Positions 3,947 through 31,200 of a DNA stretch of 39,820 nt are shown here, in pieces. This DNA comes from a virus. The DNA lies in the IMG/VR virus record IMGVR_UViG_3300044703_000150, positions 1-39,820 of that record; one strand, written 5' to 3'. The notes under the pieces were generated by a model. The model saw only the letters and a program-made list of their open reading frames with translations, was not told the DNA's origin and ran no database searches. The position numbers were made by a program, and so were the translations under genes. Positions within the stretch are counted from its first letter, which is position 1. The number at the start of each line of letters is the position of its first letter.

Positions 3947-5878
3947 TCAGTACGCGAGCGGGTACGAGACGTTCGCGCCCGCGCCCTCGATGTAGCCGAA
4001 GGTCGCGTCCTCGTAGACGAAGAAGTCGGAGACCCCCGACCCGGCCGGTGAGAGCTGCCAGGTGGTCGTCCAGGTGCCGTCGCCCGGGGCGTTGTGGTCG
4101 ATCGACTCGATGAAGAAGTCGGCGCTGATGTCGGGTGCGGAGCCGGTGTGCCGCTTCACCGTGATCCGGTCGCCGATCTTGCGCCCGAGGGCGTGCGGCC
4201 ACAGCGCCGTGTTGGACGAGGGCCGGATCGTGATGGCCTCGACGCGCAGGTGCGGGTCCTTGTAGGCGCCGAGCAAGAAGTTCGCGCGGTCCGTGGCCTG
4301 CGCGTCGGTGTCGACGCCGATGGTCTGGCTCAGCGGGCTTGCGCCGAAGTAGTGGGCCTGGCTCGTGGCGTCCTCGACGTGGACCGTGGCGCCGCCCGTG
4401 CGGTCCAGGGTGACGTCGTTGTAGATGAGCGTGTTGTCGAAGTCGAACGCCACGTCCTCATAGGGCAGTTCGCCTGGGCCGTCGCCGAACGTCGCCTGGC
4501 TTGCGGCGTTGAACCGCGCAGACCGCTGGCGGAAGGTGACCTTGCCATCGGGAGCGATGAAGAGGTTGCCTCCCTCCCACTCGGCGAGATCGCCGAGCGC
4601 CTGCGCCACCTTCGTGCCGTCGACGGAGTAGTCGCCCACGGTTGAGGCTCCGGTGTCGATGTCACGGGCGGCGGCGGGCCAGCCGACCGAATCCAGGTAG
4701 CGTCCCGCGCGGGTTCCGGTCGCGTCGCCCGGATAACCCAGCCCGGCATTGTAGTGGGCAAGGACGCGTGCGGCCGACAGGGCCGAGTCGTACACCGCGG
4801 CGTGAGCGTAGGTGCCGGTCAGGTAGGTCAGGTTGCGGGTGCCGCCCAGGTCGAGCGTTGCGGCTGGGTACCTTGGTGCGACTGCGGTCGCCGACACGTC
4901 GGACCCGACGGCTACGCCGTCGACGTATAGCACGAGAGTCTTTCGTGCCGCGTCGACAGTCTGAACCAGGTGATGCCACGCGTTGTCCACGATCGAGGCG
5001 GGGGAGACCGCTGAGATAACGGCGCCCCCGGAATAAGGATCGGAATACCCTGCGCTCACAATTCCGCTCGCGCTGAGTGCAAGTCCCGCCTGATATCCCC
5101 CGTAAGCGCCGTCGCGTTGCAGGAATAGGTCGCCGCCGACGGCCGGAGCAGCCGCGAACTTGGCCCACACCTCCATCGTGGACGCTCCCGCCAGGCTGAC
5201 GATCGGTGGCAGGGGCAGCAGATCGCCTGCGGTCAGGAGACCGCCTGCGGTTAGGGTAAGCGCGGTCGCGCCCGCCACCGGGCCATCCGTTCCGAACGCG
5301 AATGCGCCAGGGCCGTTCTTGGATTCCAGGGGGGCGGCTGGTGGCAACCCGGCCCCGGACATGTCCCCTGCGGACGTGCTGCCGCTCGCCTCGCGCAGGG
5401 GGAAGTACGCGGTCGGTCCATCCGCCACGACCTCGGCTTGATACAGCGAAGGCAGGGGCGCTCGCGACAACGGCGAGCACGCATCGACGCACGTCAGCGC
5501 GACGACCCCCAGGAACCCCGCCGCGACCCAGGCCTGCGGGTATCGCTCTGCGAATCCTGTCCACACGTCGTACGTCACCCCGTTCCAGACCGCCTGCCGG
5601 TTGTACCGGCGCATCGGCAACAGCGACTTCCCGCCGGAGTTCAGCGGCGACGTGGTGTTCGTCGGGTCGAACCGGCCGTCGGTGTTCTCCACCGCCACGG
5701 TAGCAGTGCCGGTGTCCGTGCGGGCCAACTCGTAGGTACGGCCCGAGTGGCAGGAGAAGGCCGTGACCAGCGACTTGCCGTTGGCGTCCACCAGCGTCGT
5801 CCAGGTCGTGACCGCCGACGTCGGGTCGTTCGTGACGTCCATGCGGTCGGTGATGACCGGCCAGTTGGCGTTCGTCAT
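3947..5878 (-). CDS. minor tail protein with inserted LamG-like (concanavalin-A-like) domain
   Basis: The protein is 643 residues. The start (ATG 5878) overlaps the tape-measure stop by 4 nt. The N-terminal part (about 1-135) looks like a tail-hub segment, with repeated Thr/Asp-rich strands and VENTDGRFDPTN. Residues of about 150-375 form a LamG/concanavalin-A-like lectin module: PTAYFPLREASG at its beginning, then STMEVWAKF, NAWHHLVQT, LVLYVDGVAVG, and YDSALSAARVLAHYNAG at its end. The C-terminal part (about 400-643) again looks like a hub or distal tail domain, with IGDRITVKRH and WTTTWQLSPAG. The lectin-encoding DNA (about 4750-5470) is visibly less GC-rich than its surroundings, which suggests a swapped module. 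A role in binding host-surface sugars is inference. Confidence 0.8.
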   Translation of the reverse strand: MTNANWPVITDRMDVTNDPTSAVTTWTTLVDANGKSLVTAFSCHSGRTYELARTDTGTATVAVENTDGRFDPTNTTSPLNSGGKSLLPMRRYNRQAVWNGVTYDVWTGFAERYPQAWVAAGFLGVVALTCVDACSPLSRAPLPSLYQAEVVADGPTAYFPLREASGSTSAGDMSGAGLPPAAPLESKNGPGAFAFGTDGPVAGATALTLTAGGLLTAGDLLPLPPIVSLAGASTMEVWAKFAAAPAVGGDLFLQRDGAYGGYQAGLALSASGIVSAGYSDPYSGGAVISAVSPASIVDNAWHHLVQTVDAARKTLVLYVDGVAVGSDVSATAVAPRYPAATLDLGGTRNLTYLTGTYAHAAVYDSALSAARVLAHYNAGLGYPGDATGTRAGRYLDSVGWPAAARDIDTGASTVGDYSVDGTKVAQALGDLAEWEGGNLFIAPDGKVTFRQRSARFNAASQATFGDGPGELPYEDVAFDFDNTLIYNDVTLDRTGGATVHVEDATSQAHYFGASPLSQTIGVDTDAQATDRANFLLGAYKDPHLRVEAITIRPSSNTALWPHALGRKIGDRITVKRHTGSAPDISADFFIESIDHNAPGDGTWTTTWQLSPAGSGVSDFFVYEDATFGYIEGAGANVSYPLAY

Positions 5879-10223: not shown

Positions 10224-10700
10224 CTAGATTCGGGCGCGGACGTGAAGGAAGAGGGTCGCGACGGTGAAGCGGCCGAGCGGCTGGCCGTCGTCGCCCTCGG
10301 GGATGGACGACTCGTAGTCGCAGGAGACGGGGACGGCGCGGATGTTGACGGTGCCGCCGACCGTGGGGTCCACACGCAGCGCCGCGATGACGAGGTCGAC
10401 CAGGGCCGCGCACCGCTCGAACACCAGGCGGGCCTGGTCGCCGCCGCGGAACACCGACACGACGACCTCGACCGTGTAGCCCTCCTCCAGCGCCCCGGCC
10501 TGCATGTTGCCGACCATCGCGGAGGTCGTGATCTCGCGGCGCACGTCGCCGACGAACACGACGTCGTTGTGCTGCTGGCCGGCAAGCGGCTCGTCGTAGG
10601 AGACGAGGATCTCCGGGTCGGCCGCGATCGTGGCGTCGGTGGAGATCATGGTGACGAGGCCCGACTTGACCGCCGTGACCGTCGAGGACGGGACGGTCAC
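10224..10700 (-). CDS. head-tail or tail terminator-like protein
   Basis: The protein is 158 residues from GTG 10700, overlapping the preceding stop by 4 nt. It is made of alternating strands and helices: VEVVVSVFRGGDQARLVFERCAALVDLVIAALR in the middle and RFTVATLFLHVRARI at the end. This resembles tail terminator / neck proteins that cap the tail tube next to the head. It sits between the gp6-like connector and the tail tube gene, the usual place for a terminator. The family is not certain from sequence alone. Confidence 0.6.
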   Translation of the reverse strand: MTVPSSTVTAVKSGLVTMISTDATIAADPEILVSYDEPLAGQQHNDVVFVGDVRREITTSAMVGNMQAGALEEGYTVEVVVSVFRGGDQARLVFERCAALVDLVIAALRVDPTVGGTVNIRAVPVSCDYESSIPEGDDGQPLGRFTVATLFLHVRARI

Positions 10701-11347
10701 GCGGCGCCGAGGCCGATCTCGTCGGCGAGCAGGTCCATCGCCGCCGGCGGAATCCAGTACCGCGACGCGAAGCCCTGCGCGCTGTCGTCCCCGCCGCCGT
10801 ACACCCCGCCGCGGAACGCGGGGGAGACGGGCCGTTGGCCCTTGCGGAAGATGTTGGCGAGCATCAGCTCCGCCGCCTCCTTGAAGTGCGCGGCCACCGA
10901 CGCCGTGTCGGGGTAGCGGCCGGCCGTGTAGGTGGCGACGACGTTCAGCGCCCCGCTGGCGAAGTTCGCCGCGTTGCCGCTGGCCCGGCGCAGCACCTTC
11001 CCGGTGTAAAGACCGGCGCGCGCCCGGTCGGGCTCGAGGAGGTAGCCGGTCGCGGGCCTGCTGAGGTTCGACTCGGCGGCGAGCACCGTCGGGGTCAGGG
11101 TGCTGTACTCGGTGATGCTCGTGACCGAGACGACGGGGCGGCTGTCCAGCTCGATCCACGCCTGCCCGCCGTCGTGCGTCTCGCCCGTGACCAGCCGCGC
11201 CACCACGGGGCCACACAGGGAGTCGAGCCGCCGCGAGATCGCCGTCACGTAGGTGGGCAGCCGGGCGTCCTGGGTGGCGTCCGCGGAGTCGAGCGCGACC
11301 GCGAGCCGCGCCTCCGCGATCGTCAGGACGTCGAGGACGTCGCTCAC
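10697..11347 (-). CDS. head-tail connector protein (gp6-like)
   Basis: The protein is 216 residues from GTG 11347 (GTGA overlap with the preceding small gene). It starts with a helical stretch (VLDVLTIAEARLAVAL), followed by YVTAISRRLDSLCGPVVAR, typical of gp6/gp15-type adaptor proteins that bind under the portal. A strand-rich middle (SVTSITEYSTLTPTVL) and a long C-terminal helix (AHFKEAAELMLANIFRKGQ) follow. In most phages this gene directly follows the capsid gene; here the glycosyltransferase cassette separates the two. Confidence 0.72.
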   Translation of the reverse strand: MSDVLDVLTIAEARLAVALDSADATQDARLPTYVTAISRRLDSLCGPVVARLVTGETHDGGQAWIELDSRPVVSVTSITEYSTLTPTVLAAESNLSRPATGYLLEPDRARAGLYTGKVLRRASGNAANFASGALNVVATYTAGRYPDTASVAAHFKEAAELMLANIFRKGQRPVSPAFRGGVYGGGDDSAQGFASRYWIPPAAMDLLADEIGLGAA

Positions 11348-11493
11348 GTCTCGCCGTCCAGCGTGAGGTCGCCCACCGTGCGGAACGTCGGCTGCGGTGC
11401 CAGTCGCCACGCGAACGGCACCGCGCGCAGCTCCTCGCCGAACTCCAGCGGGAGCAGGACGGGACGGTTGACGGGCGCCACGTCGTCGCTCAT
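11344..11493 (-). CDS. 49-residue protein between cassette and connector
   Basis: This short gene starts at ATG 11493 and overlaps both neighbours by 4 nt (ATGA with the glycosyltransferase stop, GTGA with the connector start). Both junctions follow the rule seen throughout this genome, which is the main support for it. The product is acidic at the N-terminus, then LLPLEFGEELRAVPFAWRL and PTFRTVGDLTLDGET. No family was recognised. It could be a small head protein, or part of the cassette by position. Confidence 0.6.
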   Translation of the reverse strand: MSDDVAPVNRPVLLPLEFGEELRAVPFAWRLAPQPTFRTVGDLTLDGET

Positions 11494-12035
11494 GCGGCCC
11501 AACTCCCGTTCCCGTAGCCGTGCCCGAACCGGTAGGAGACGGTGTGCTCATGCGTGCAGGCGAACCGCGCGCCCTGGGCCAGCCAGGACCGCCACGTCGT
11601 CCAGTCGACCCACGCCCCGGGCGGCGCCTGGGCGAACCCGCCCCAGGCCAGCACCTGCTCGCGGCGGGCCATCACGGTCGACGGCGGGAACCAGTTCGTG
11701 TGGCGCAGGTCGTCGTAGTCGCAGTGGTGGCGCTCGATGGAGGACTCGGGCCGGCCGACCAGCCGGAAGCTCGCCACTGCGACGTCGCAGTCGAGCGCCG
11801 ACCCGGCGGCGAGGTGTCCGGGGTCCCAGAGGTCGTCGTCGTGCAGGAACGCCACCCACTCGGTGGACGCCGCGCGGACCAGCCGGTTCATGTTCGCGGC
11901 CTCGCCGACCACGCGCGGGTCGACGCCGATGAGCACCGCGTCCGGCTGGAGGGTCTGCGCCCGCACCGACGCGAGCGCCTCGGCGAGCAGGGTGTGGCGC
12001 TCCGGGAGGCTGACTACGCAGACGGTGACGGACAT
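11490..12035 (-). CDS. glycosyltransferase family 2 (GT-A fold)
   Basis: The protein is 181 residues. The N-terminus has the GT2 pattern: a beta strand VTVCVVSL, the PERHTLLAEALASVRAQTL helix, then a strand DAVLIGVDP, and NMNRLVRAASTEWVAFLHDDD containing the metal/nucleotide-binding acidic motif (Asp66-Asp68), followed by LWDPGHL. A later VMARREQVLAWGGF matches the acceptor side of the domain. It is short for the family, so it may act on a small acceptor or with a partner. It is the last gene of the cassette; ATG 12035 lies within the end of the previous gene (22-nt overlap). The substrate cannot be predicted. Confidence 0.82.
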   Translation of the reverse strand: MSVTVCVVSLPERHTLLAEALASVRAQTLQPDAVLIGVDPRVVGEAANMNRLVRAASTEWVAFLHDDDLWDPGHLAAGSALDCDVAVASFRLVGRPESSIERHHCDYDDLRHTNWFPPSTVMARREQVLAWGGFAQAPPGAWVDWTTWRSWLAQGARFACTHEHTVSYRFGHGYGNGSWAA

Positions 12036-12748
12036 GGGTCGTACACCAGCCCCTCCGCGCCGAGAAGGGTCAGCCACTCGCGGTGCAGCGCCTCGTCGCC
12101 GAGGGCCCCGAGCGTCCGCCAGTGCGCACCCGTCGACTCGGGCAGGTCCGTCGCCGCCAGCGCCGCGCGGCCCTGGCGGACCTTCCGCCGGAACTGCTCC
12201 CACGTCCGGTACTGGTAGTGCCGGACCACCAGCCCTGACGCTCTCGGGCCAGGACGGTCCACGCCGTGGTTGCCGTCGTGCAGCACGGCGCCCGGGTGGT
12301 GGCGGAAGGCCACGACCGGCAGCGGCTCGGGAGTGGCCTCGCGCCACCGGATGCGCCGGACCGGGTCCGGGTCGTCGCCGTCGTCGGGCTGGGGCAGGTA
12401 GTCGAACACCGTCGCGAGCAGCACGTCCGCGGCCGTGGACGCGAAGGCGCGCGCGAGCGTGCCGGACTCGCCGCTCCACAGCTCGTCGGCGTCGAACGGG
12501 ACGATCCAGTCGCCCGGCTCGCAGTGCCGCCGGACGAGGGCCGTCATCTTCGCGCCCTGGTAGTGCGCGGGGTCGTGGTCGTCCACGACCGTCAGCGGAA
12601 GGCCCAGCCCGTCGATGACGTCCCGCGTCCCGTCGGCCGAGCCGTTGTCCGCGACGACGAACCGTTCGATGCCCTGCGCGGCGTGGTGGCGCAGCGTCGC
12701 CTCGATGATGTCGGCCTCGTCGCGGACCATCGCGACCCCGACGATCAT
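12014..12748 (-). CDS. glycosyltransferase family 2-like (GT92 / Glyco_tranf_2_4 type)
   Basis: The protein is 244 residues. MVRDEADIIEATLRHHAAQG (7-26) is the classic start of this group. It is followed by FVVADNGSADGT (30-41), and FDADE (85-89) supplies the DXD metal site. A later HYQYRTWEQFRRKVRQGRAAL helix-rich region is also typical, and a His before it (GNHGV) may help bind metal. No membrane segment is present, so it should act in the cytoplasm on a soluble acceptor, in keeping with virion proteins as targets. It joins its neighbours by 1-nt and 22-nt overlaps. Confidence 0.85.
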   Translation of the reverse strand: MIVGVAMVRDEADIIEATLRHHAAQGIERFVVADNGSADGTRDVIDGLGLPLTVVDDHDPAHYQGAKMTALVRRHCEPGDWIVPFDADELWSGESGTLARAFASTAADVLLATVFDYLPQPDDGDDPDPVRRIRWREATPEPLPVVAFRHHPGAVLHDGNHGVDRPGPRASGLVVRHYQYRTWEQFRRKVRQGRAALAATDLPESTGAHWRTLGALGDEALHREWLTLLGAEGLVYDPCPSPSA

Positions 12749-13323
12749 CAGATGTGCCAGCCGCGCCCGCGCTCGACGCCGTCATGGACGACGGGCGCGA
12801 ACGAGCGGTCGCCGTAGAAGCCGAACGAGTAGCCGGCGGCCAGCGCGCGGGCAGTGAACTCCGACTCGTCGCTCGTCCAGCCGAGCTCCAGCACGCGGCG
12901 CGGGACGAGGCAGGGGTTGAGGGAGAACAGCCGGCGGGTCTCGATCCAGCCCTCCCGGTCCGTGTAGTCCTCGGGGTGCATCTCGATGATCCCGCCCGCG
13001 GCCCGCTCCTCGACCGAGAACGCGGGGCGGCGCAGGACGAGCTGTGCGAGGCGCGGCGTCTCCGCGAGGATCGCCGCCATGTCGAGCAGGTTCACGTCGG
13101 CGACGAAGCGGAAGTCCTCCTCGACGTGGAACAGGTAGTCCCAGCCCTCGGCCAGCGCGCGGCCCCATGCCGCGCGGACGGCACCCGACAACCCGAGCCG
13201 GTGGTCTCGGTCGTCGACCACGAAGTAGTCGGCCCAGCCGATGACGTGCTCGCCGAAGGACCGCTGGCAGTCCGGCAGGTAGCGGTCCTCGCGGTCGGAC
13301 ACGAAGGCGACGCCGATCGTCAC
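12748..13323 (-). CDS. glycosyltransferase-like protein (GT-A)
   Basis: The protein is 191 residues from GTG 13323. It opens with TIGVAFVSDREDRYLPDCQ and has a nucleotide-sugar-type layout: YFVVDDRDHRLG (33-44), then AVRAAWGRALAEGWDYLFHVEEDFRF, where Glu68-Glu69-Asp70 replaces a standard DXD. Further on are RRLFSLNPCLVPRRVLELGW and a C-terminal FYGDRSFAPVVHDGVERGRGWH. It resembles small phage GT2 proteins. The overlap with the next gene is 1 nt (TGATG). The enzyme family is fairly clear, the donor and acceptor are not. Confidence 0.75.
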   Translation of the reverse strand: MTIGVAFVSDREDRYLPDCQRSFGEHVIGWADYFVVDDRDHRLGLSGAVRAAWGRALAEGWDYLFHVEEDFRFVADVNLLDMAAILAETPRLAQLVLRRPAFSVEERAAGGIIEMHPEDYTDREGWIETRRLFSLNPCLVPRRVLELGWTSDESEFTARALAAGYSFGFYGDRSFAPVVHDGVERGRGWHI

Positions 13324-13325
13324 GC

Positions 13326-13892
13326 TCAACGCGCCGGCACCCCCTTGACTGTCGTCCCGCTGGGGACGTGGCCGACGACGACCGCGCCAGCCCCTGCGAC
13401 GACCCCGGCGCCGACGGTGACGAGGTTGCGGACTGTCGCGCCCGCGCCGAGCAGCGAGCCCGGCCCGATCGCGACGTCGCCGCAGACCGTCACCCCGGGA
13501 GCCAGCGTGGTGAACTCCCCGACCGTGCACCGGGTCAGGTGGGACCCGGCACCGACGTGGACGTGGTCGCCGATCCGCACCTCGCAGAGCAGCGACACGA
13601 ACGGCCCGATGACGACGCCCTTGCCGAGGCGGCAGCCGGGACCGACGTAGGCGGTGGGGTGGACGAGTGCCTCGTGCGGCCGCCAGCCGAGCGCCGTGAC
13701 CCTGCCGACCATGGCGGCGCGCGCGGCCGGGTCGTTGATCCCGACGATGTAGCCGTGCTGGACCCCCTGGACCGGCTCGCCCACCTCGGGGTTGTCGTCG
13801 TGGACGTACACGGACGCCACGTCTCCGTGCACCGCGCGGACGACGGCGGCGACGTCGCGGCCGTGGCCGCCGCCGCCGACGATGACCGTCAC
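13326..13892 (-). CDS. PglD/NeuD-like sugar acyltransferase with left-handed beta-helix
   Basis: The protein is 188 residues. The N-terminal nucleotide-fold domain starts with VIVGGGGHGRDVAAVVR (GGGGHG at 6-11). From about residue 78 there are hexapeptide-repeat turns: HPTAYVGPGCRLGKGVVIGP ... CEVRIGDHVHVGAGSHLTRC ... TTLAPGVTVCGDVAIGPGSL. This is the trimeric left-handed beta-helix of acetyl-CoA-dependent sugar N- or O-acetyltransferases. His118 (SHLT) lines up with the catalytic His of PglD-type enzymes. It lies inside the glycosyltransferase cassette, so it probably acetylates the sugar that is transferred. The GTG start overlaps the preceding stop by 4 nt. Confidence 0.88.
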   Translation of the reverse strand: MTVIVGGGGHGRDVAAVVRAVHGDVASVYVHDDNPEVGEPVQGVQHGYIVGINDPAARAAMVGRVTALGWRPHEALVHPTAYVGPGCRLGKGVVIGPFVSLLCEVRIGDHVHVGAGSHLTRCTVGEFTTLAPGVTVCGDVAIGPGSLLGAGATVRNLVTVGAGVVAGAGAVVVGHVPSGTTVKGVPAR

Positions 13893-15319
13893 GGCAGGTC
13901 CGCGCCGAAGTCCGGGTGCCGGGCCAGGAACAGCGACGCGGGGTCGAGGTCCCACTTCGCGGCGAACGCCTTCTCGTCCAGCCGTGCCTCGCCCAGCCGC
14001 TCACCGGTGGTCGAGCCGTTCGGCTCCAGGTGCTCGACGGCCGTGCCCCCGACCGTCACGACGTGCTTGCCGAGCGCGCGCGCCTGGGCTTCCAGGTCGG
14101 AGTCCCCGTACCACCAGCCGAATTGCTGGTCGACGTCGAGGGCGGACTCGCCGCGGAGCATGAAGCAGAACCCGGCCATGGACCGGCCCTCGGTGATCTG
14201 CGCCTGGCCGGGTTCGAGGTCGAGGCCGTGGACGTTCGGGTAGGCGAGGGCGATGTCGGGGTGCGCGCGCAACGCCCGGGCGAGCTGGCCGAGGGTGCCG
14301 GGCGGGACGCGCAGGTCGTTGTTCAGGACGGCGACGTTGCAGACCGGCGAGCGGCGGCGCGCCTCGGCGATGCCGTGCGCCCACATGGCGTGCAGGGGCC
14401 AGCCGGTGGCGTCGACGTGCTCGACGTGTCCGCCGTCGACGGCGTCCCGGTAGGAGGGTGCGGAGCCGTTGTCGTACAGCAGGACGGTCACGCCCTCGCC
14501 CGCGAGGTCGGCCAGGAGGTCGCGGGTCATGGCGTGGCGGTCGCGGCCCGGCACCACCACGTAGGTCGGGACCTCGGCCGGCGCGGGGCGCAGCGACTCG
14601 AAGAGCGCCGCGGTCGCGACGAAGGACTTCTGATGGCCAATCTCGATCGACGTGTCGACGTGGACGGGGAAGCCGAGCGAGCCCGCCCGCAGGCAGAAGG
14701 TGATGTCCTCGGAGATCACGTCGTCGTAGTCGGGGTAGAGCGTCTCGGCGAACCACGTCCACGGCTTCCGCCAGCGACCCGAGGACTCCATCGCCTCCAG
14801 GACGCTGCGATGCACCAGCAGGCAGGCCGCTCCGGTCGCCGCCACGGCCACGACGGCGTCACGCGGGTAGTCATGGTAGACGACCGTGCGCGGCGGTGTG
14901 TCGTCGTTCGTCCCGTACAGGGTCGGGGTGAGGGTCAGGACGTTGTCGTGCTCCTGCGTGACCCGGAAGCAGAGCCCGCCGACGATCGGGCGGGTCACGG
15001 GATCGGCCGATCGCAGGAGCCGGTCGAGGGTGTCGGGCGCGAAGTCCATGTCGGCGTCGATGAGCCACAGCCACGCCGCGTCCGTGGCGAGGAAGTCGCG
15101 GACGACACTGTTGCGCGCCGTCGTGATGTTGGCGCCGGACGCCATGTCGAGGGTGCCGGCGACGACCCGGCGGGCCGCGAACGAGTCGCGGACCAGCAGG
15201 TCGACCAGCGAGCGGTGGAACCGGGCCCCGACGTGGTCCGACGGGTGGAGGTAGGCGACGATGACGCTGTCGCGGCGGAACGACTGCTCCGCCCGGGCAG
15301 GCTTGCGCTGCTTGCTCAT
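13889..15319 (-). CDS. bifunctional tandem glycosyltransferase (two GT-A domains)
   Basis: The protein is 476 residues with two glycosyltransferase domains. Domain 1 (about 15-245): VIVAYLHPSDHVGARFHRSL, then WLWLIDADMDF with the DAD metal site (88-90), a GG-LCFRV strand, SEDITFCLRA (203-212) with the catalytic acidic pair, and IGHQKS (His229). Domain 2 (about 250-476): TYVVVPGRDRHAMTRDLLAD, LLYDNGSAPS, NVAVLNNDLRVPP (Asp335), GDSDLEAQARALG (406-418) and a metal-type His (VEHLEPNGSTTG, His430). It has no membrane segment. ATG 15319 has a ggggag ribosome binding site. It is the first gene after the hairpin that follows the capsid gene. Two domains could build a disaccharide on a virion protein. 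Confidence 0.85.
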   Translation of the reverse strand: MSKQRKPARAEQSFRRDSVIVAYLHPSDHVGARFHRSLVDLLVRDSFAARRVVAGTLDMASGANITTARNSVVRDFLATDAAWLWLIDADMDFAPDTLDRLLRSADPVTRPIVGGLCFRVTQEHDNVLTLTPTLYGTNDDTPPRTVVYHDYPRDAVVAVAATGAACLLVHRSVLEAMESSGRWRKPWTWFAETLYPDYDDVISEDITFCLRAGSLGFPVHVDTSIEIGHQKSFVATAALFESLRPAPAEVPTYVVVPGRDRHAMTRDLLADLAGEGVTVLLYDNGSAPSYRDAVDGGHVEHVDATGWPLHAMWAHGIAEARRRSPVCNVAVLNNDLRVPPGTLGQLARALRAHPDIALAYPNVHGLDLEPGQAQITEGRSMAGFCFMLRGESALDVDQQFGWWYGDSDLEAQARALGKHVVTVGGTAVEHLEPNGSTTGERLGEARLDEKAFAAKWDLDPASLFLARHPDFGADLP

Positions 15320-15384: not shown

Positions 15385-16959
15385 CTAGACGCGCAGCAGG
15401 CGGAACGCGTCGTTGACCACGACGTCCGCGCCGGTACGCCACGTCGCGTACCAGCCGACCTGGCCGGTCGGGCGCTGGTTCGGGCCCTTGACGAGCGGCT
15501 CGTAGACGAGGCTCACGCCGATCCGGTCGGCGATGAGGTACTGCTTGAAGTCGCCGAGCAGCAGGACGTCGTCGTTCGAGGCCGTCGCGGCGGACAGGCT
15601 CGACGGCATGTCCGAGGCCTGGCGGGCGTCGTAGCCGATCATCTTCGGCGGCAGGCCGCCCCCGAAGTCCACCCAGAACGTGCCCGTCAGCGGGCCCGAG
15701 CCGGTCGCGAAGAACCGCGCCTGGTTGTAGATGGCCTTGTTGGCGAGGAACGTCGCGTTGGCCCGCCAGCGCGGGGAGAGGGCGTTGTCGAGCGCGACCA
15801 CGTCCACGGCGCCGAACGCGCCGTTGGTCATCGCCGCGACGCGCGACGCCGTGACGCCCGAGATCGCGGCGATGACACCGTGCGGCTGCGTGGTGCCGTT
15901 GCCGTTGGTGAACGCCGCCGCCTCCAGGCGGTCCTTGGCGTCCGCGATCAGCATGCCGACGTCGGACTCGATGTTCGAGTCCTGGAGGAACTCGAACGAC
16001 GCCTGCAAGTACGCGTCTGCCTTGAAGCAGGTGACCGACGGCTGCGCGAACGTGGGGCTGCCGTCGGCGGCCTCCGCGGCCTCCGCGGTCCACTCCGCGG
16101 TGACGCCCGCGGACGTCACACCGTGCCAGACGTTCTGCGTCGTCTGCACGACCCGGGCGAGGCTGCGGATCGCGTTCGACGTGCCGGCGTTCGTCAGGAT
16201 GATCGTCGGGTCGAGCTCGAACGGCAGCAGGTAGCCGCCGTTCGCGGACGCGAGCGCCATCGCGGCGCGCATCGCGTCCCGCTCCTCGCCGTCGAGCATG
16301 TAGGGCTGGACGCCGCGCAGCGCCTGGCGGAAGGCCGTCCGGTAGGCCGGGCGGCCGGTCGTGAGGATGTGGATGGCGGCGCCGGCCGGGTCGTCGACCA
16401 GCTCCAGCGTCCGCGTCGCGGCCTCGCGGACCTCGTCGGGGACCCGCTTGGGCAAGTCCTCGATGGCGTCCATGGCACGCGAGACCAGCTCGGTGCGGAC
16501 CGAGTCCTGGTCGAGCATCGGGTTGGTCCGCAGGTGGTCGATGTCGTAGGTCTTGGAGCGGTCCCGGGTCTCCCCGGTGTCGTCCACGGACGAGCCCGGG
16601 GTGCGGTTGCCCGGCTTGAGGCTCGCGCTGCGGATCGACTCCATCTTCTCGGCCCGCTCGGCGAGCGGGATGCGCTCGGCCGAGAGGGTGTCCCACTCGG
16701 TGATGAGTGCCGTGGCGCGCTCGGCGTCGGTGGCCCGCGCGGTCTCGATGGCGGTCAGGTCGTCGCCGGACTTGCCCTCGATCTCGGCGGTGCGGGTCGC
16801 CTCGGTGGTCTCCAGGGTGGTCAGCTCGTCGCGGATCGCGGCGAGGCGGGTGTCGATCTGCTCCAGGCGGGTCGGGGCGCCGCCTGCGATCGGGTAGATG
16901 GGCCGGCCGTCGAGGTAGCCGATGGGCCGCTTGAAGCGGCTCAGGCGGGTCGCGTTCAT
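15385..16959 (-). CDS. major capsid protein, HK97 fold, with N-terminal delta domain
   Basis: The protein is 524 residues. Residues of about 27-130 form a long charged coiled coil (TRLEQIDTRLAAIRDELTTL onward) that matches the scaffolding delta domain normally removed by the prohead protease. The HK97 capsid core follows, with GGYLLPFELDPTIILTN, the strand-rich EWTAEAAEAADGSPTF segment, the SFEFLQDSNIESDVGMLIA helix, LEAAAFTNGNGTTQPHGV, and a C-terminus GDFKQYLIADRIGVSLVYE. At 524 residues it is long for a subunit. The start ATG 16959 overlaps the protease stop by 4 nt. It is a likely target of the glycosylation cassette encoded just downstream. Confidence 0.95.
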   Translation of the reverse strand: MNATRLSRFKRPIGYLDGRPIYPIAGGAPTRLEQIDTRLAAIRDELTTLETTEATRTAEIEGKSGDDLTAIETARATDAERATALITEWDTLSAERIPLAERAEKMESIRSASLKPGNRTPGSSVDDTGETRDRSKTYDIDHLRTNPMLDQDSVRTELVSRAMDAIEDLPKRVPDEVREAATRTLELVDDPAGAAIHILTTGRPAYRTAFRQALRGVQPYMLDGEERDAMRAAMALASANGGYLLPFELDPTIILTNAGTSNAIRSLARVVQTTQNVWHGVTSAGVTAEWTAEAAEAADGSPTFAQPSVTCFKADAYLQASFEFLQDSNIESDVGMLIADAKDRLEAAAFTNGNGTTQPHGVIAAISGVTASRVAAMTNGAFGAVDVVALDNALSPRWRANATFLANKAIYNQARFFATGSGPLTGTFWVDFGGGLPPKMIGYDARQASDMPSSLSAATASNDDVLLLGDFKQYLIADRIGVSLVYEPLVKGPNQRPTGQVGWYATWRTGADVVVNDAFRLLRV

Positions 16960-25675: not shown

Positions 25676-25848
25676 GCCGTGTCCTCCAAGGGTGCGGTGG
25701 TCTGCCAGTCGAGCGGCCCGCCGTCGCGGTCCGGCACGCCGCCCGAGTCCCACTCGAACTCCACCGGACGCATGCCCAGCGGCGCGACTCCCTCGTCCCA
25801 GCCACCCGGGCCGGCGAACAGGTCCACGTCCAGCGTCGGGCGGCTCAC
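25672..25848 (-). pseudogene. N-terminal fragment of a cytosine-5 DNA methyltransferase (Dcm-like)
   Basis: The 58-residue product contains LDVDLFAGPGGWDEGVAPLG and RPVEFEWD, which match motif I (the SAM-binding DLFAGPGG loop) and the following strand of C5 cytosine methyltransferases. The sequence then leaves homology and stops. The catalytic Pro-Cys motif and all later motifs are missing, and I see no continuation in the other frames. Both junctions still obey the 4-nt overlap rule, so it may be translated as a small SAM-binding-like protein or may be a decayed remnant beside an intact methyltransferase. Confidence 0.6.
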
Positions 25849-26825
25849 GTTTCCTCCGCGACGAGGACGCCCTGCGCGAACCGCTTGGCTGCCAGGTCGT
25901 GGTAGTCGGCCCTGAGGTCGATCCCGACGTACCGGCGGCCGAGCAACCGGGCCGCCAGACCCGTCGTCCCGGTGCCGGAGAACGGATCCAGCACAGCACC
26001 ATCCGGCCTGCACCCGGCTGCGACGCAGCGTGTCGGCACGTCGAGCGGGAAGGTCGCGTGGTGCCCACTGTCCCGGGCGGGCCGGTTGTTCATCAGCCAG
26101 ACCGAGCGGGCGTTGCGGCCTCCCTTCCCCGGACGGGAGTGGATGCCGACGTTGTTCACGTTGCCCGGCTGGCCCGTCGTGGCTGCGCGGTCGCTGTGCG
26201 CCTCGTACTCGCGGGCGTACCGCTGGTTGTGCGCCTCCTGCTCCGGATCAGACGCCTCGCGGATCGCGTCGGCGTCGTAGAAGTAGCGCGGCCCCTTCGC
26301 CAGCAGGAACACGAACTCGTGGATACGCGTCGGCCTGTCCTTCACGGCCTCCGGCATGACGTTCTGCGGCGCCCACACGTTGTCGCAGCGCAGCAGCCAG
26401 CCGTCGTCGCGGAGCGCGAACGCGACCATCCACGGGATGCCGATCAGGCTCTTGGCGGGTAGCCCCCTGAACCCGCCGACCCCGGACGGGGTGAAGCCGC
26501 GTCCCGCGCGTTGGCCCGTGCTGCCCTGCGTGCCGGTCGGCGACGGGTTGGCGTAGGAGTCGCCGAGGTTCAGCCACAGCGTCCCGTCGTCCGCGAGCAC
26601 CCGCCGGACCTCACGGAACACGTCACGCAGCGTCGCCACGAACTCGTCGGGCGTCGCCTCCATGCCGTACTGGCCGTCCACTCCGTAGTCGCGCTGCCGG
26701 AAGTACGGCGGCGACGTGACGCAGCAGTCCACCGCCGCGTCGGGTAGTTCCCGCAGTACCGCAAGCGCGTCCCCGTGGTACAGCGTCACAGACTCGTCGG
26801 CGTAGTAGGGCACATGAGGGCTCAC
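25845..26825 (-). CDS. DNA methyltransferase, amino-group type (TSPPY)
   Basis: The protein is 326 residues. TSPPY (37-41) is catalytic motif IV, and DPFSGTGTT (280-288) is the SAM-binding motif I near the C-terminus, the order of the beta class. TSPPY is most common in N4-cytosine methyltransferases, but N6-adenine enzymes also occur. It also has GVDGQYGMEATPDEFVATL, LWLNLGDSYANP, and KDRPTRIHEFVFLLAKGPRY. No restriction nuclease is adjacent, so it probably protects phage DNA from host restriction. GTG 26825 overlaps the preceding stop by 4 nt. Confidence 0.88.
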   Translation of the reverse strand: MSPHVPYYADESVTLYHGDALAVLRELPDAAVDCCVTSPPYFRQRDYGVDGQYGMEATPDEFVATLRDVFREVRRVLADDGTLWLNLGDSYANPSPTGTQGSTGQRAGRGFTPSGVGGFRGLPAKSLIGIPWMVAFALRDDGWLLRCDNVWAPQNVMPEAVKDRPTRIHEFVFLLAKGPRYFYDADAIREASDPEQEAHNQRYAREYEAHSDRAATTGQPGNVNNVGIHSRPGKGGRNARSVWLMNNRPARDSGHHATFPLDVPTRCVAAGCRPDGAVLDPFSGTGTTGLAARLLGRRYVGIDLRADYHDLAAKRFAQGVLVAEET

Positions 26826-28040: not shown

Positions 28041-28526
28041 TCAGGTCCCCATCGGGTCGGTACGGGCGATGCGCTCCAGGCGGGCCCGGCCTGCGTCGTC
28101 GGCGGCACGCCAAGCGTGCAGCCAGACCGCCACGCCCTCAGGCCGGTACGTCTCCTCCAGCCAGGCGAGCACGTCCTCGGCGGGCTCGCAGTACCGCCAC
28201 TCGATCCGGGTGATCTCAGTGCCCGGCGTCGCGCCCTTGTGGGTGCGGCAGAAGAAGTCGATGAACCGGGCTGGCGTCCAGCCGGGGAAGCCCTCGGCGG
28301 TGCAGTCCGCGTCGGTGATCAGGTAGAGCGGCTCCCGGCGTACCGACACGACCTCGACCTCAGCGAGGCGGACCAGCGGCTCGCCCTTGCGGCGTCCCAT
28401 CACCTTCCGGCACAAGGTCAGGCGGTCGCCCGGGCGCAGCATCAGCCAGCCGAGTCGCCTCGTGACCGTCTTGGTCCCCGCCACCACGGACGCCTCGGTC
28501 AGGGCCACCGACATGAGGCGGCTCAC
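28041..28526 (-). CDS. ASCH/PUA-like domain protein
   Basis: The protein is 161 residues. GTG 28526 overlaps the preceding stop by 4 nt; ATG 28514 is possible. The N-terminus MSVALTEASVVAGTKTVTRR is followed by LRPGDRLTLCRKVMGRRKG and VRLAEVEVVSVRREPLYLI. This is the typical ASCH order: substrate prompt, RPGDRL turn, strand, then VEVVSV. The end has TEITRIEWRYCE. ASCH domains bind RNA or modified bases, and phage copies are common. Function here is not known. Confidence 0.62.
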   Translation of the reverse strand: MSRLMSVALTEASVVAGTKTVTRRLGWLMLRPGDRLTLCRKVMGRRKGEPLVRLAEVEVVSVRREPLYLITDADCTAEGFPGWTPARFIDFFCRTHKGATPGTEITRIEWRYCEPAEDVLAWLEETYRPEGVAVWLHAWRAADDAGRARLERIARTDPMGT

Positions 28527-29035
28527 GGCGTGGACTTCCAGATCAGCAGGCAGCAGCCGAACGGTGGCCGCTCGTTAGCGCTGATCTCGAGCTGACCCGG
28601 CCGTAGGAACCGCATCCGGCCAGGCAAGAACTCCACGGTCAGACTGGATCCCGGCTTGTCGCGATGCGGCTCCACGAGCCGCTGCCACCACTTCTGCTCC
28701 GTCCGGTTCGCGGGTAGCAGCATGACGATGCCGAGGGTCGACCTGTACTCGGCCCACGCCTTCCGCACCCACGGCTCGATCGCCGAGAACGGCGGGTTGC
28801 ACCACACCCGCTCGCCAGCCCACGACTGCCGCAGGCCGTCCTGCTCCCGGGTGTAGTAGCGGTCGCACTTCGTGTTGTGGGGCGCCGCCGCGACGTCGAC
28901 CGTGAACCGGCCGAACCTCTCCTCGAACACACCGAAGTGCAGGGGATGGGTCTGGCGGTCGTCGACCTCGTCCGCTGCCCCGGCGCGGAGCACCTGCTGC
29001 GGATGGTTCCGGGCGCGCATCCCTAACAGGCTCAC
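28523..29035 (-). CDS. phage DNA N6-adenine methyltransferase (Dam family, PF05869-like)
   Basis: The protein is 170 residues. HFGVFEERFGRFTVDVAAAP (33-52) followed by HNTKCDRYYTREQDGLRQSW and the catalytic CNPPFS (79-84) define the phage Dam-type family, where DPPY is replaced by NPPF. WWQRLVEPHR and the EFLPGRMRF segment follow. It modifies adenine in phage DNA, probably to evade host restriction. This gene and the TSPPY methyltransferase form two separate modification activities in one operon. Confidence 0.85.
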   Translation of the reverse strand: MSLLGMRARNHPQQVLRAGAADEVDDRQTHPLHFGVFEERFGRFTVDVAAAPHNTKCDRYYTREQDGLRQSWAGERVWCNPPFSAIEPWVRKAWAEYRSTLGIVMLLPANRTEQKWWQRLVEPHRDKPGSSLTVEFLPGRMRFLRPGQLEISANERPPFGCCLLIWKSTP

Positions 29036-29888: not shown

Positions 29889-30223
29889 GGAGTGGTCCCG
29901 GCGGGTTCACGCGCGGGGAGGTGCGGGGTCGGCTCGGTACAGGTGCAGGTGATCCCGTACTGGAAGTGGCCGGGTGGCGGGTTGGGGCGCTCGCCCGTCC
30001 GGTTGCAGCCCATCGCTCCGCAGTGGGAGCAGTGCGGGTTGCCCTCCTTGGTGAACACCAGGTGCCGGTTCCGCTGGCCCTCCAGGTCGACCTGCACCGC
30101 AGTCGCCCGCGCGAGCCGGACCGCAAGGTCAGTCCGCGCACCCGAGCCGATGTGGAGCAGGTCCGCCTCCTCGTCCAGCACGTCGCGGAGCGCGTGCATG
30201 AGATCGTCGTCGTACTGCGCCAT
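29885..30223 (-). CDS. hypothetical protein with C-terminal zinc motif
   Basis: The protein is 112 residues. A helical, acidic N-terminal part (ALRDVLDEEADLLHIGSGAR, LAVRLARATAVQVDLEG) leads to HCSHCGAMGC (about 64-73) and CTCTEP (about 93), which can bind zinc. It begins at ATG 30223, sharing one base with the stop of the gene before (TGATG). No family recognised. Confidence 0.58.
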   Translation of the reverse strand: MAQYDDDLMHALRDVLDEEADLLHIGSGARTDLAVRLARATAVQVDLEGQRNRHLVFTKEGNPHCSHCGAMGCNRTGERPNPPPGHFQYGITCTCTEPTPHLPAREPAGTTP

Positions 30224-31200
30224 CAGCGCACCTCCGGGTATCCGTCGTGGGACACGCCGTCGAGCAGCCGCCCTGCGGCCTTCTTGCCAACGCGGCTGAC
30301 GAGCGCCTGCGTACGCGACGGCGGTCCTGCGGTCCGCCAGGGCACGACCTCAGCGCTGACCGCGTCGACCAGCGCAACGCGGGCCGGACGGTCCACGAGG
30401 TCCGCGCCCATCGCGCCTGGCCGCCACTCGCCCCACTGCTTGAAGAAGAACGGCACGCCCGCCTCGACGCACTCGTCACGGAGCGTCCGCGCCCACTCCG
30501 GGTGCATCGGACGCGCGCCCGCGCCCGACTCACCGCCGACGATCACCCAGTCGATCCGTCGCAGTCCGTCAAGGTGGTTCGTCACTCCTGGGCGCTCTGC
30601 CCACGGCTGCCATTCCGCCCATCGGAAGGTGACCGGACCGAGCAGCGGCTCGCACGACAGGAACCGCACGGCCGCAGGCGTTCCGAGCAGCGCGGGCACC
30701 CTGATGTCCGCCCACTGCTGCGTCTCGACGGACACGCCGAGCCAGACGTTCGGCAGCGGCCACGTGTAGCCGGTGAACCCGGGCCGGTCGTCGGGCAGGC
30801 ACACGTAGTGCCGGTGGACCGCCTCGCGGAAGTCGCTCGCGTTGAGCAGCGCCCGCATCCTCGCGTGCCGCTTCGTCAGGACCTGGAACGTGTGCTGCGA
30901 CGCGCACGCCATGACCGCGAACACCTGGGCGATGTAGTCGTCGGGCATGGCGTCGTGGAACAGGTCCGACATGGAGTTGACGAAGATGCGTCGCGGCCTC
31001 TTCCACCGCAGCGGCTGGTCCAGCTTCTCCGGGACGACCAGCGGATCGAAGCCCTCCTCGTAGGCGTGGCCCGGCACTCCGCGCCAGCGTTCGGCGAACG
31101 TCTCGGCGTAGCAGTGGTCGCACCCCGCAGAGACCTTCGTGCAGCCGCGCGTCGGATTCCACGTGGCGTCGGTCCATTCGATGCCGCTCTTGTCGCTCAC
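30223..31200 (-). CDS. phage Gp37/Gp68-family protein (DUF5131-like)
   Basis: The protein is 325 residues. IEWTDATWNPTRGCTKVSAG with CDHCYAETFAERW is the family signature, giving Cys20, Cys27 and Cys30 (C-x6-C-x2-C with a Tyr next to the last Cys). Later blocks include RRIFVNSMSDLFHDAMPDDY, FQVLTKRHARM, NVWLGVSVETQQWADIRVP, FLSCEPLLGPV, DWVIVGGESGAGARPMHPEW and PFFFKQWGEW. The three-Cys loop resembles a radical-SAM-type [4Fe-4S] site, so a radical enzyme is possible, but the reaction is unknown. GTG 31200 overlaps the preceding stop by 4 nt. Confidence 0.82.
   Translation of the reverse strand: MSDKSGIEWTDATWNPTRGCTKVSAGCDHCYAETFAERWRGVPGHAYEEGFDPLVVPEKLDQPLRWKRPRRIFVNSMSDLFHDAMPDDYIAQVFAVMACASQHTFQVLTKRHARMRALLNASDFREAVHRHYVCLPDDRPGFTGYTWPLPNVWLGVSVETQQWADIRVPALLGTPAAVRFLSCEPLLGPVTFRWAEWQPWAERPGVTNHLDGLRRIDWVIVGGESGAGARPMHPEWARTLRDECVEAGVPFFFKQWGEWRPGAMGADLVDRPARVALVDAVSAEVVPWRTAGPPSRTQALVSRVGKKAAGRLLDGVSHDGYPEVR

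Follow-up and report, generated by a model that had tools for sequence, protein, structure and literature searches.

The 39,820-nucleotide stretch analysed here (the window; positions 1-39,820 of IMG/VR record IMGVR_UViG_3300044703_000150) comes from an uncultivated virus, probably a phage with an actinobacterial host. It contains a cassette of five sugar-enzyme genes, all on the minus strand, with the major capsid gene upstream and a head-tail adaptor gene downstream. The best explanation of the cassette is virion glycosylation, with the capsid as the probable acceptor, a reading that we hold to be likely. It is supported because the N-terminal glycosyltransferase (GT) domain of the cassette, GTA1, is linked to the capsid gene across a clade of viruses, because two further GTs, GTC and GTD, occupy the matching slot behind an unrelated capsid family, and because the genes expected for DNA glycosylation or serotype conversion were not found. 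The gene models agree with an earlier sequence-based reading of this DNA (the original prediction), which described a tightly overlapping five-gene block between capsid and connector at 11490-15319. The genes and their borders are as follows.

15385-16959, minus strand: major capsid protein, 524 amino acids, HK97 fold (Pfam Phage_capsid, 4e-40); the proposed acceptor.
13889-15319, minus strand: GTA, fused double GT-A glycosyltransferase, 476 amino acids; N-terminal half GTA1, C-terminal half GTA2 (GT2).
13326-13892, minus strand: ACT, hexapeptide PglD/NeuD-like acyltransferase-fold protein, 188 amino acids, GTG start (Pfam Hexapep, 2.3e-19).
12748-13329, minus strand: GTC, GT-A-type, galactosyltransferase-like, 193 amino acids, TTG start (phrog_3047, 2.6e-4).
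12014-12748, minus strand: GTD, GT2-type (Pfam Glyco_tranf_2_4, 5e-16), 244 amino acids.
11490-12035, minus strand: GTE, GT2-type glycosyltransferase, 181 amino acids (Pfam GT2, 2e-7).
11344-11493, minus strand: open reading frame of 49 codons with no assigned function.
10697-11347, minus strand: head-tail adaptor (connector), which bounds the cassette on its downstream side (phrog_442, 2.7e-14).

The linkage to the capsid gene was analysed from both sides. A scan of IMG/VR with an alignment of the GTA1 domain yielded 390 relatives on GT patterns alone, and the 80 best were retained; after removal of sequences more than 75% identical, 45 loci remained, 43 with a recognisable upstream gene. The nearest recognised gene upstream of GTA1 is the capsid gene in 40 of these 43 distinct loci, with a median gap of 275 nt. 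The order is capsid-connector-GTA1 in two of the others, and the last has a portal gene upstream and no recognised capsid gene. The reverse scan used an alignment of the clade capsids, blind to GTs, and gave 69 loci with readable downstream sequence. A GT lies behind the capsid gene in 56 of them and none in 13, in eight of which the connector follows 219-279 nt behind the capsid gene. The 56 comprise 52 counted by script (GTA1 within 2.5 kilobases) and four added by reading the rows: L216 and L238, whose frame opens before the cut, L275, with GTA1 at 2549 nt, and L273, with a GTA2-type GT. The original prediction held that phages normally leave no space for extra genes in this slot, which fails for this uncultivated clade. 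It holds for the isolated phages with the closest capsids (Gordonia phage Eyre and Mycobacterium phages Brujita and Sbash; 37-39% identity), where the connector comes directly after the capsid gene; a M. abscessus prophage carries other small genes there. On capsid trees (FastTree, with long branches present), a single change explains the presence and absence of GTA1 in the first set, and about four changes do so once GT-less relatives are added, versus about 43-49 in shuffles. In three IMG/VR contigs (L021, L030 and L091), the single gene between capsid and connector encodes a GT that corresponds to the N-terminal half of GTA. GTA1 is often the lone GT behind the capsid gene, and its direct substrate is therefore probably a virion protein, with no need of a partner GT.

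The GT-A active site of GTA1 is conserved. The AlphaFold model of GTA (31-sequence alignment) contains two well-formed GT-A domains with a mean predicted local distance difference test (pLDDT) score of 89.8, and Foldseek ranks COLGALT1 (collagen galactosyltransferase), bacterial chondroitin/heparosan polymerases and LH3 at the top, with viral GTs lower; COLGALT1, among the best PDB fold matches, is a protein-glycosylating enzyme. The invariant residues of GTA1 in a 47-sequence alignment, which include D88, D90, E204, D205 and H229, conform to the pattern expected of active GT-A enzymes. A PDB profile search with GTA1 returned weak ABO-transferase segments (E 0.3), which we did not use as evidence. 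The domain is found at four loci in 84,980 bacterial and archaeal species genomes; the sole match of a profile search of 396 actinobacterial genomes is a previously found prophage of Amycolatopsis pretoriensis DSM 44654 (GTA1 at L212), and 50,697 phage records gave distant matches alone. GTA1 thus belongs to a phage family that is near-absent from isolated phages and bacterial genomes.

The remaining GTs show a second association with head genes. Among 39 viral relatives of GTD, retrieved with GTD alone, GTC and GTD recur together in about 30 contigs. In nine of these (L096, L101, L102, L106, L109, L113, L114, L116 and L123; L113 and L114 resemble near-copies), the pair lies behind a capsid gene of a different family, phrog_283. 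Scaffold and protease genes lie upstream at these loci, and head-closure genes follow the pair where readable. One slot has thus served two unrelated head modules. Directly after GTD, the phrog_283-capsid phages carry a further GT, which we call U (L106 8750-9424, with equivalents in L096-L123); it bears a DPRFxGWGxED motif and is GT7C-like by eye.

Pfam GT2 domains are present in GTA (residues 257-359), GTD and GTE, and PHROGs glycosyltransferase matches in GTA (residues 60-238) and GTE; a Pfam search with GTC gave no match. Together with the GTA model and the weak galactosyltransferase match of GTC, these matches bear out four GT genes, one with two GT-A domains. The GT-A fold or its acidic metal motif is seen for GTA in the model and Foldseek matches, for GTA1 and GTC in acidic motifs (E70/D72 of GTC are invariant in a 32-member alignment), and for GTD and GTE in their Pfam matches. 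The five products also appear soluble, as had been proposed: the highest 19-residue Kyte-Doolittle mean is 1.84, and none has a convincing membrane segment.

The capsid and GTA genes are separated by 65 nt, and each gene from GTA through ACT, GTC, GTD, GTE and the 49-codon frame to the adaptor overlaps the next, by 4, 4, 1, 22, 4 and 4 nt, respectively. With such stop/start overlaps, translation of the cassette genes is probably coupled. The GC content of the cassette equals that of the flanking DNA, and a recent foreign insertion was rejected on this ground. Neither a nucleotide search of phage records nor scans of viral contigs that used GTA, ACT or the capsid as single proteins gave a match, and scanning required alignments. 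The search for the same block in other phages that the original prediction had called for then found orthologous blocks in other viral contigs, at the same site and in near-identical order, so the cassette is not a chance arrangement. In contig L013, the closest relative, from the capsid-alignment scan, the capsid is 63% identical and the whole block occupies the matching site. Compared with the window, L013 has the order of GTC and ACT swapped, GTD is preceded by an additional methyltransferase gene, and a zinc-cluster-type gene stands in front of GTA. This last gene (L013 5057-5689), which is absent from the window, encodes a Cys/His-rich protein (Pfam Zf_WRKY19, 9e-10) between capsid and GTA. 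The 49-codon frame of the window, which has a similar small counterpart at the matching place in L013, might encode an overlooked peptide of the head or connector. Larger cassettes such as that of the window add GTs, the acyltransferase-like protein and sometimes a methyltransferase.

ACT (ACYLTRANSFERASE) can be aligned from end to end with PglB-ATD, VioB and PerB, with E values of 1e-16 to 3e-14 to 4m98, 7txp and 4ea7, and has a GGGGHG N-terminal motif and hexapeptide coils, the repeats of the left-handed beta-helix being readable in the sequence. The match to PglD_N (PF17836) reaches 16 bits for a cut-off of 23.4, with a full-length alignment to 4m98. The catalytic histidine (PglD His125) is missing: where PglB-ATD reads VDHDC, ACT reads HLTR-C, which places an Arg in a coil one residue shorter. 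The two PerB entries 4eaa and 4eab differ at exactly this catalytic residue. Among ACT homologues retrieved from 296 actinobacterial genomes, 26 of 29 have His at the site. When viral contigs were searched with the ACT alignment, 80 loci were retrieved; all nine Arg loci and all three Gln loci adjoin cassette GTs, and 39 of the 48 His loci are not beside them. The Arg is common to eleven sequences of 28-71% pairwise identity (median 41%) with the other coils intact; it is therefore a retained feature, and plain decay of ACT was rejected. The AlphaFold model of ACT is poor (pLDDT 68) and its Foldseek matches to PglD/WeeI-type proteins are marginal, and neither was used. QdtC mutants of the matching His are reported to show reduced activity only (PMC2943079), so acyl transfer by ACT is possible and should not be assumed. 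The PglD/NeuD-like assignment thus stands as to fold and full-length similarity and falls short at the catalytic residue, which is Arg in ACT. The step from there to an acetylated sugar is weak and not a safe inference, as the His is absent and Arg or Gln at this site is exclusive to cassette members in the viral set.

The analysis shows the genes themselves, GT active-site motifs that are intact, a capsid linkage that recurs and a minimal form with a single GT. The cassette would be expressed together with the head genes. GTA1 would use a host nucleotide-sugar to place the first sugar on a virion protein, the likeliest being the major capsid protein encoded by the neighbouring gene, and GTA2, GTC, GTD and GTE would extend or branch that sugar. 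ACT might acylate one of the cassette sugars without recourse to the usual histidine, or serve as a sugar- or coenzyme A-binding accessory protein. We infer which protein accepts the sugar, in which order the enzymes act and what the glycan does for the phage, which could be shielding of the particle or an altered surface or stability.

Several points weigh against this proposal. Shared late expression could also account for the capsid linkage, and GTA1-type GTs were searched for by homology to capsid-adjacent seeds. Comparison with both GT-less sets revealed no capsid Ser/Thr column specific to the GT-bearing phages, and therefore no acceptor site can be named. The fold matches of GTA are uninformative on the acceptor and their full-length TM-scores are low, and the GT2-level similarity to proteins of phage Che8, a known case compared below, is modest. 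In ct2KA10 (L214 8845-9570), a distant GTA1 relative lies amid tail-fibre-like repeat proteins, away from the capsid gene; it may mark a branch with a different acceptor.

This last locus also bears on the strongest rival explanation, in which the glycan is attached not to the capsid but to another virion protein, such as the tail tube, the LamG tail protein or a fibre. Mycobacteriophage tail tube subunits have been reported as glycosylated (PMC12619734, PMC12363180). The window does encode the LamG tail protein named in the original prediction (3947-5872; LamG/ConA-like domain, Pfam Laminin_G_3, 4e-16); other Pfam matches in the window include an S78 protease and Phage_tube_2. However, gain and loss of GTA1 track the capsid gene and the capsid clade, and we regard a different virion acceptor as improbable. 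Among the three targets originally put forward, capsid, tail tube and LamG protein, the gene linkage points to the capsid as the most likely acceptor, and nothing singles out the other two.

GT2-type enzymes are typical of surface-glycan conversion cassettes, and their presence among the cassette GTs would fit an alteration of host surface glycans for superinfection exclusion or serotype conversion. The five products, however, include no convincing membrane-anchored GT or flippase of the kind found in gtr serotype-conversion cassettes, and the cassette sits in the late head operon of very different phages, not in a lysogeny or moron region. This explanation is very unlikely.

Just as unlikely is a modification of DNA bases, which the original prediction had named among the outcomes that would refute it; the stacked GTs and the acyltransferase would decorate a hydroxymethylated base of the phage DNA, as in hypermodification clusters. 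According to literature cited in PMC12619734, there are phage GTs by which DNA is hypermodified with diverse glycans, and the window encodes two DNA methyltransferases. These are of the N6/N4 and Dam types, however, and lie far from the cassette. A search of 34 records that carry the cassette or GTA1, with a control that worked, gave no instance of the expected thymidylate-synthase-like base hydroxymethylase (PF00303), C5-cytosine methyltransferase (PF00145) exceeded the cut-off in one of the 34, which is not the window, and Tet_JBP (PF12851) matched none, with a control that stayed silent. As the records are fragments, these absences are no more than suggestive outside the window. DNA glycosylation also offers no reason for the capsid-gene linkage. 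The methyltransferase genes (25845-26825, N6/N4; 28523-29035, Dam-type) and a gene for a DUF5131 protein (30223-31200; Pfam 1.7e-101) lie outside the structural region.

Virion glycosylation, as originally proposed, thus gains strong comparative support. Reports of virions with glycans exist for a few mycobacteriophages, and the enzymes and the idea itself are known already; the literature searched describes neither the clade-wide capsid linkage nor the one-gene form nor the altered acyltransferase. If the proposal is true, glycan-coated heads are a common trait of an unstudied lineage (a family of ~390 contigs) and not an oddity. GTA1 beside a capsid gene could serve as a sequence marker for choosing phages to examine for virion glycans, the one-enzyme minimal form makes the question of initiating enzyme and acceptor tractable, and the altered acyltransferase poses a clear, separate biochemical question. 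The broadest version, a large, mostly uncultivated clade of tailed phages in which glycosylated capsids are standard, the phage-only GTA1 initiates and elaborate members add a decoration by hitherto undescribed, His-independent (Arg/Gln) acyl-transfer chemistry, is doubtful as a whole.

Among the known systems closest to the cassette is that of mycobacteriophage Che8. Its major capsid protein is reported to bear glycans (PMC11256854, PMC12363180), and its virion-glycosylation GTs are gp108-gp110 (Freeman et al. 2023, as cited in PMC11256854 and PMC12363180). Both systems are tight clusters of phage-encoded GTs, those of the window being soluble by prediction. The GTE family profile matches gp108 (5.5e-14), and the profile of U, from the related cassettes, matches gp109 (4.8e-21). 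By reading, gp108 appears to hold a class I methyltransferase half, and a separate methyltransferase gene is present in L013 and L184; we rejected the latter as relatives of the gp108 half, as similarity was not detected. In contrast to the cassette, the GT genes of Che8 are remote from its capsid gene and close to the right genome end, GTA1, GTA2, GTC and GTD have no homologue in the Che8 set, and no acyltransferase is annotated beside its GTs.

PglD, PglB-ATD, PerB and VioB are sugar N-acyltransferases with a left-handed beta-helix of hexapeptide repeats, alike to ACT over its full length. The difference lies in the catalytic His, which ACT lacks; other cassette members have Gln or Arg, and most other homologues have His.

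Two further arrangements resemble parts of the cassette. In GX15bay (MK557849), the GT block is upstream of the terminase gene and no acyltransferase is annotated in the region examined, but adjacent GTC-like and GTD-like genes (37% and 42% identity in alignment) are accompanied by a methyltransferase and other GTs. The Streptomyces phages KimJongPhill and Zuko have no GTA1, and their GT genes lie near the genome end among tRNA genes instead of at the capsid gene, but a GTA2-like GT (34% and 32% identity, respectively) lies beside a methyltransferase and another GT. Directly upstream of the GTA2-like GT and methyltransferase of KimJongPhill, gene 110 (L007 3990-4634) encodes a 2-oxoglutarate-Fe(II) oxygenase-like protein, as judged by eye; this would be compatible with a hydroxylated residue as the site of glycosylation.

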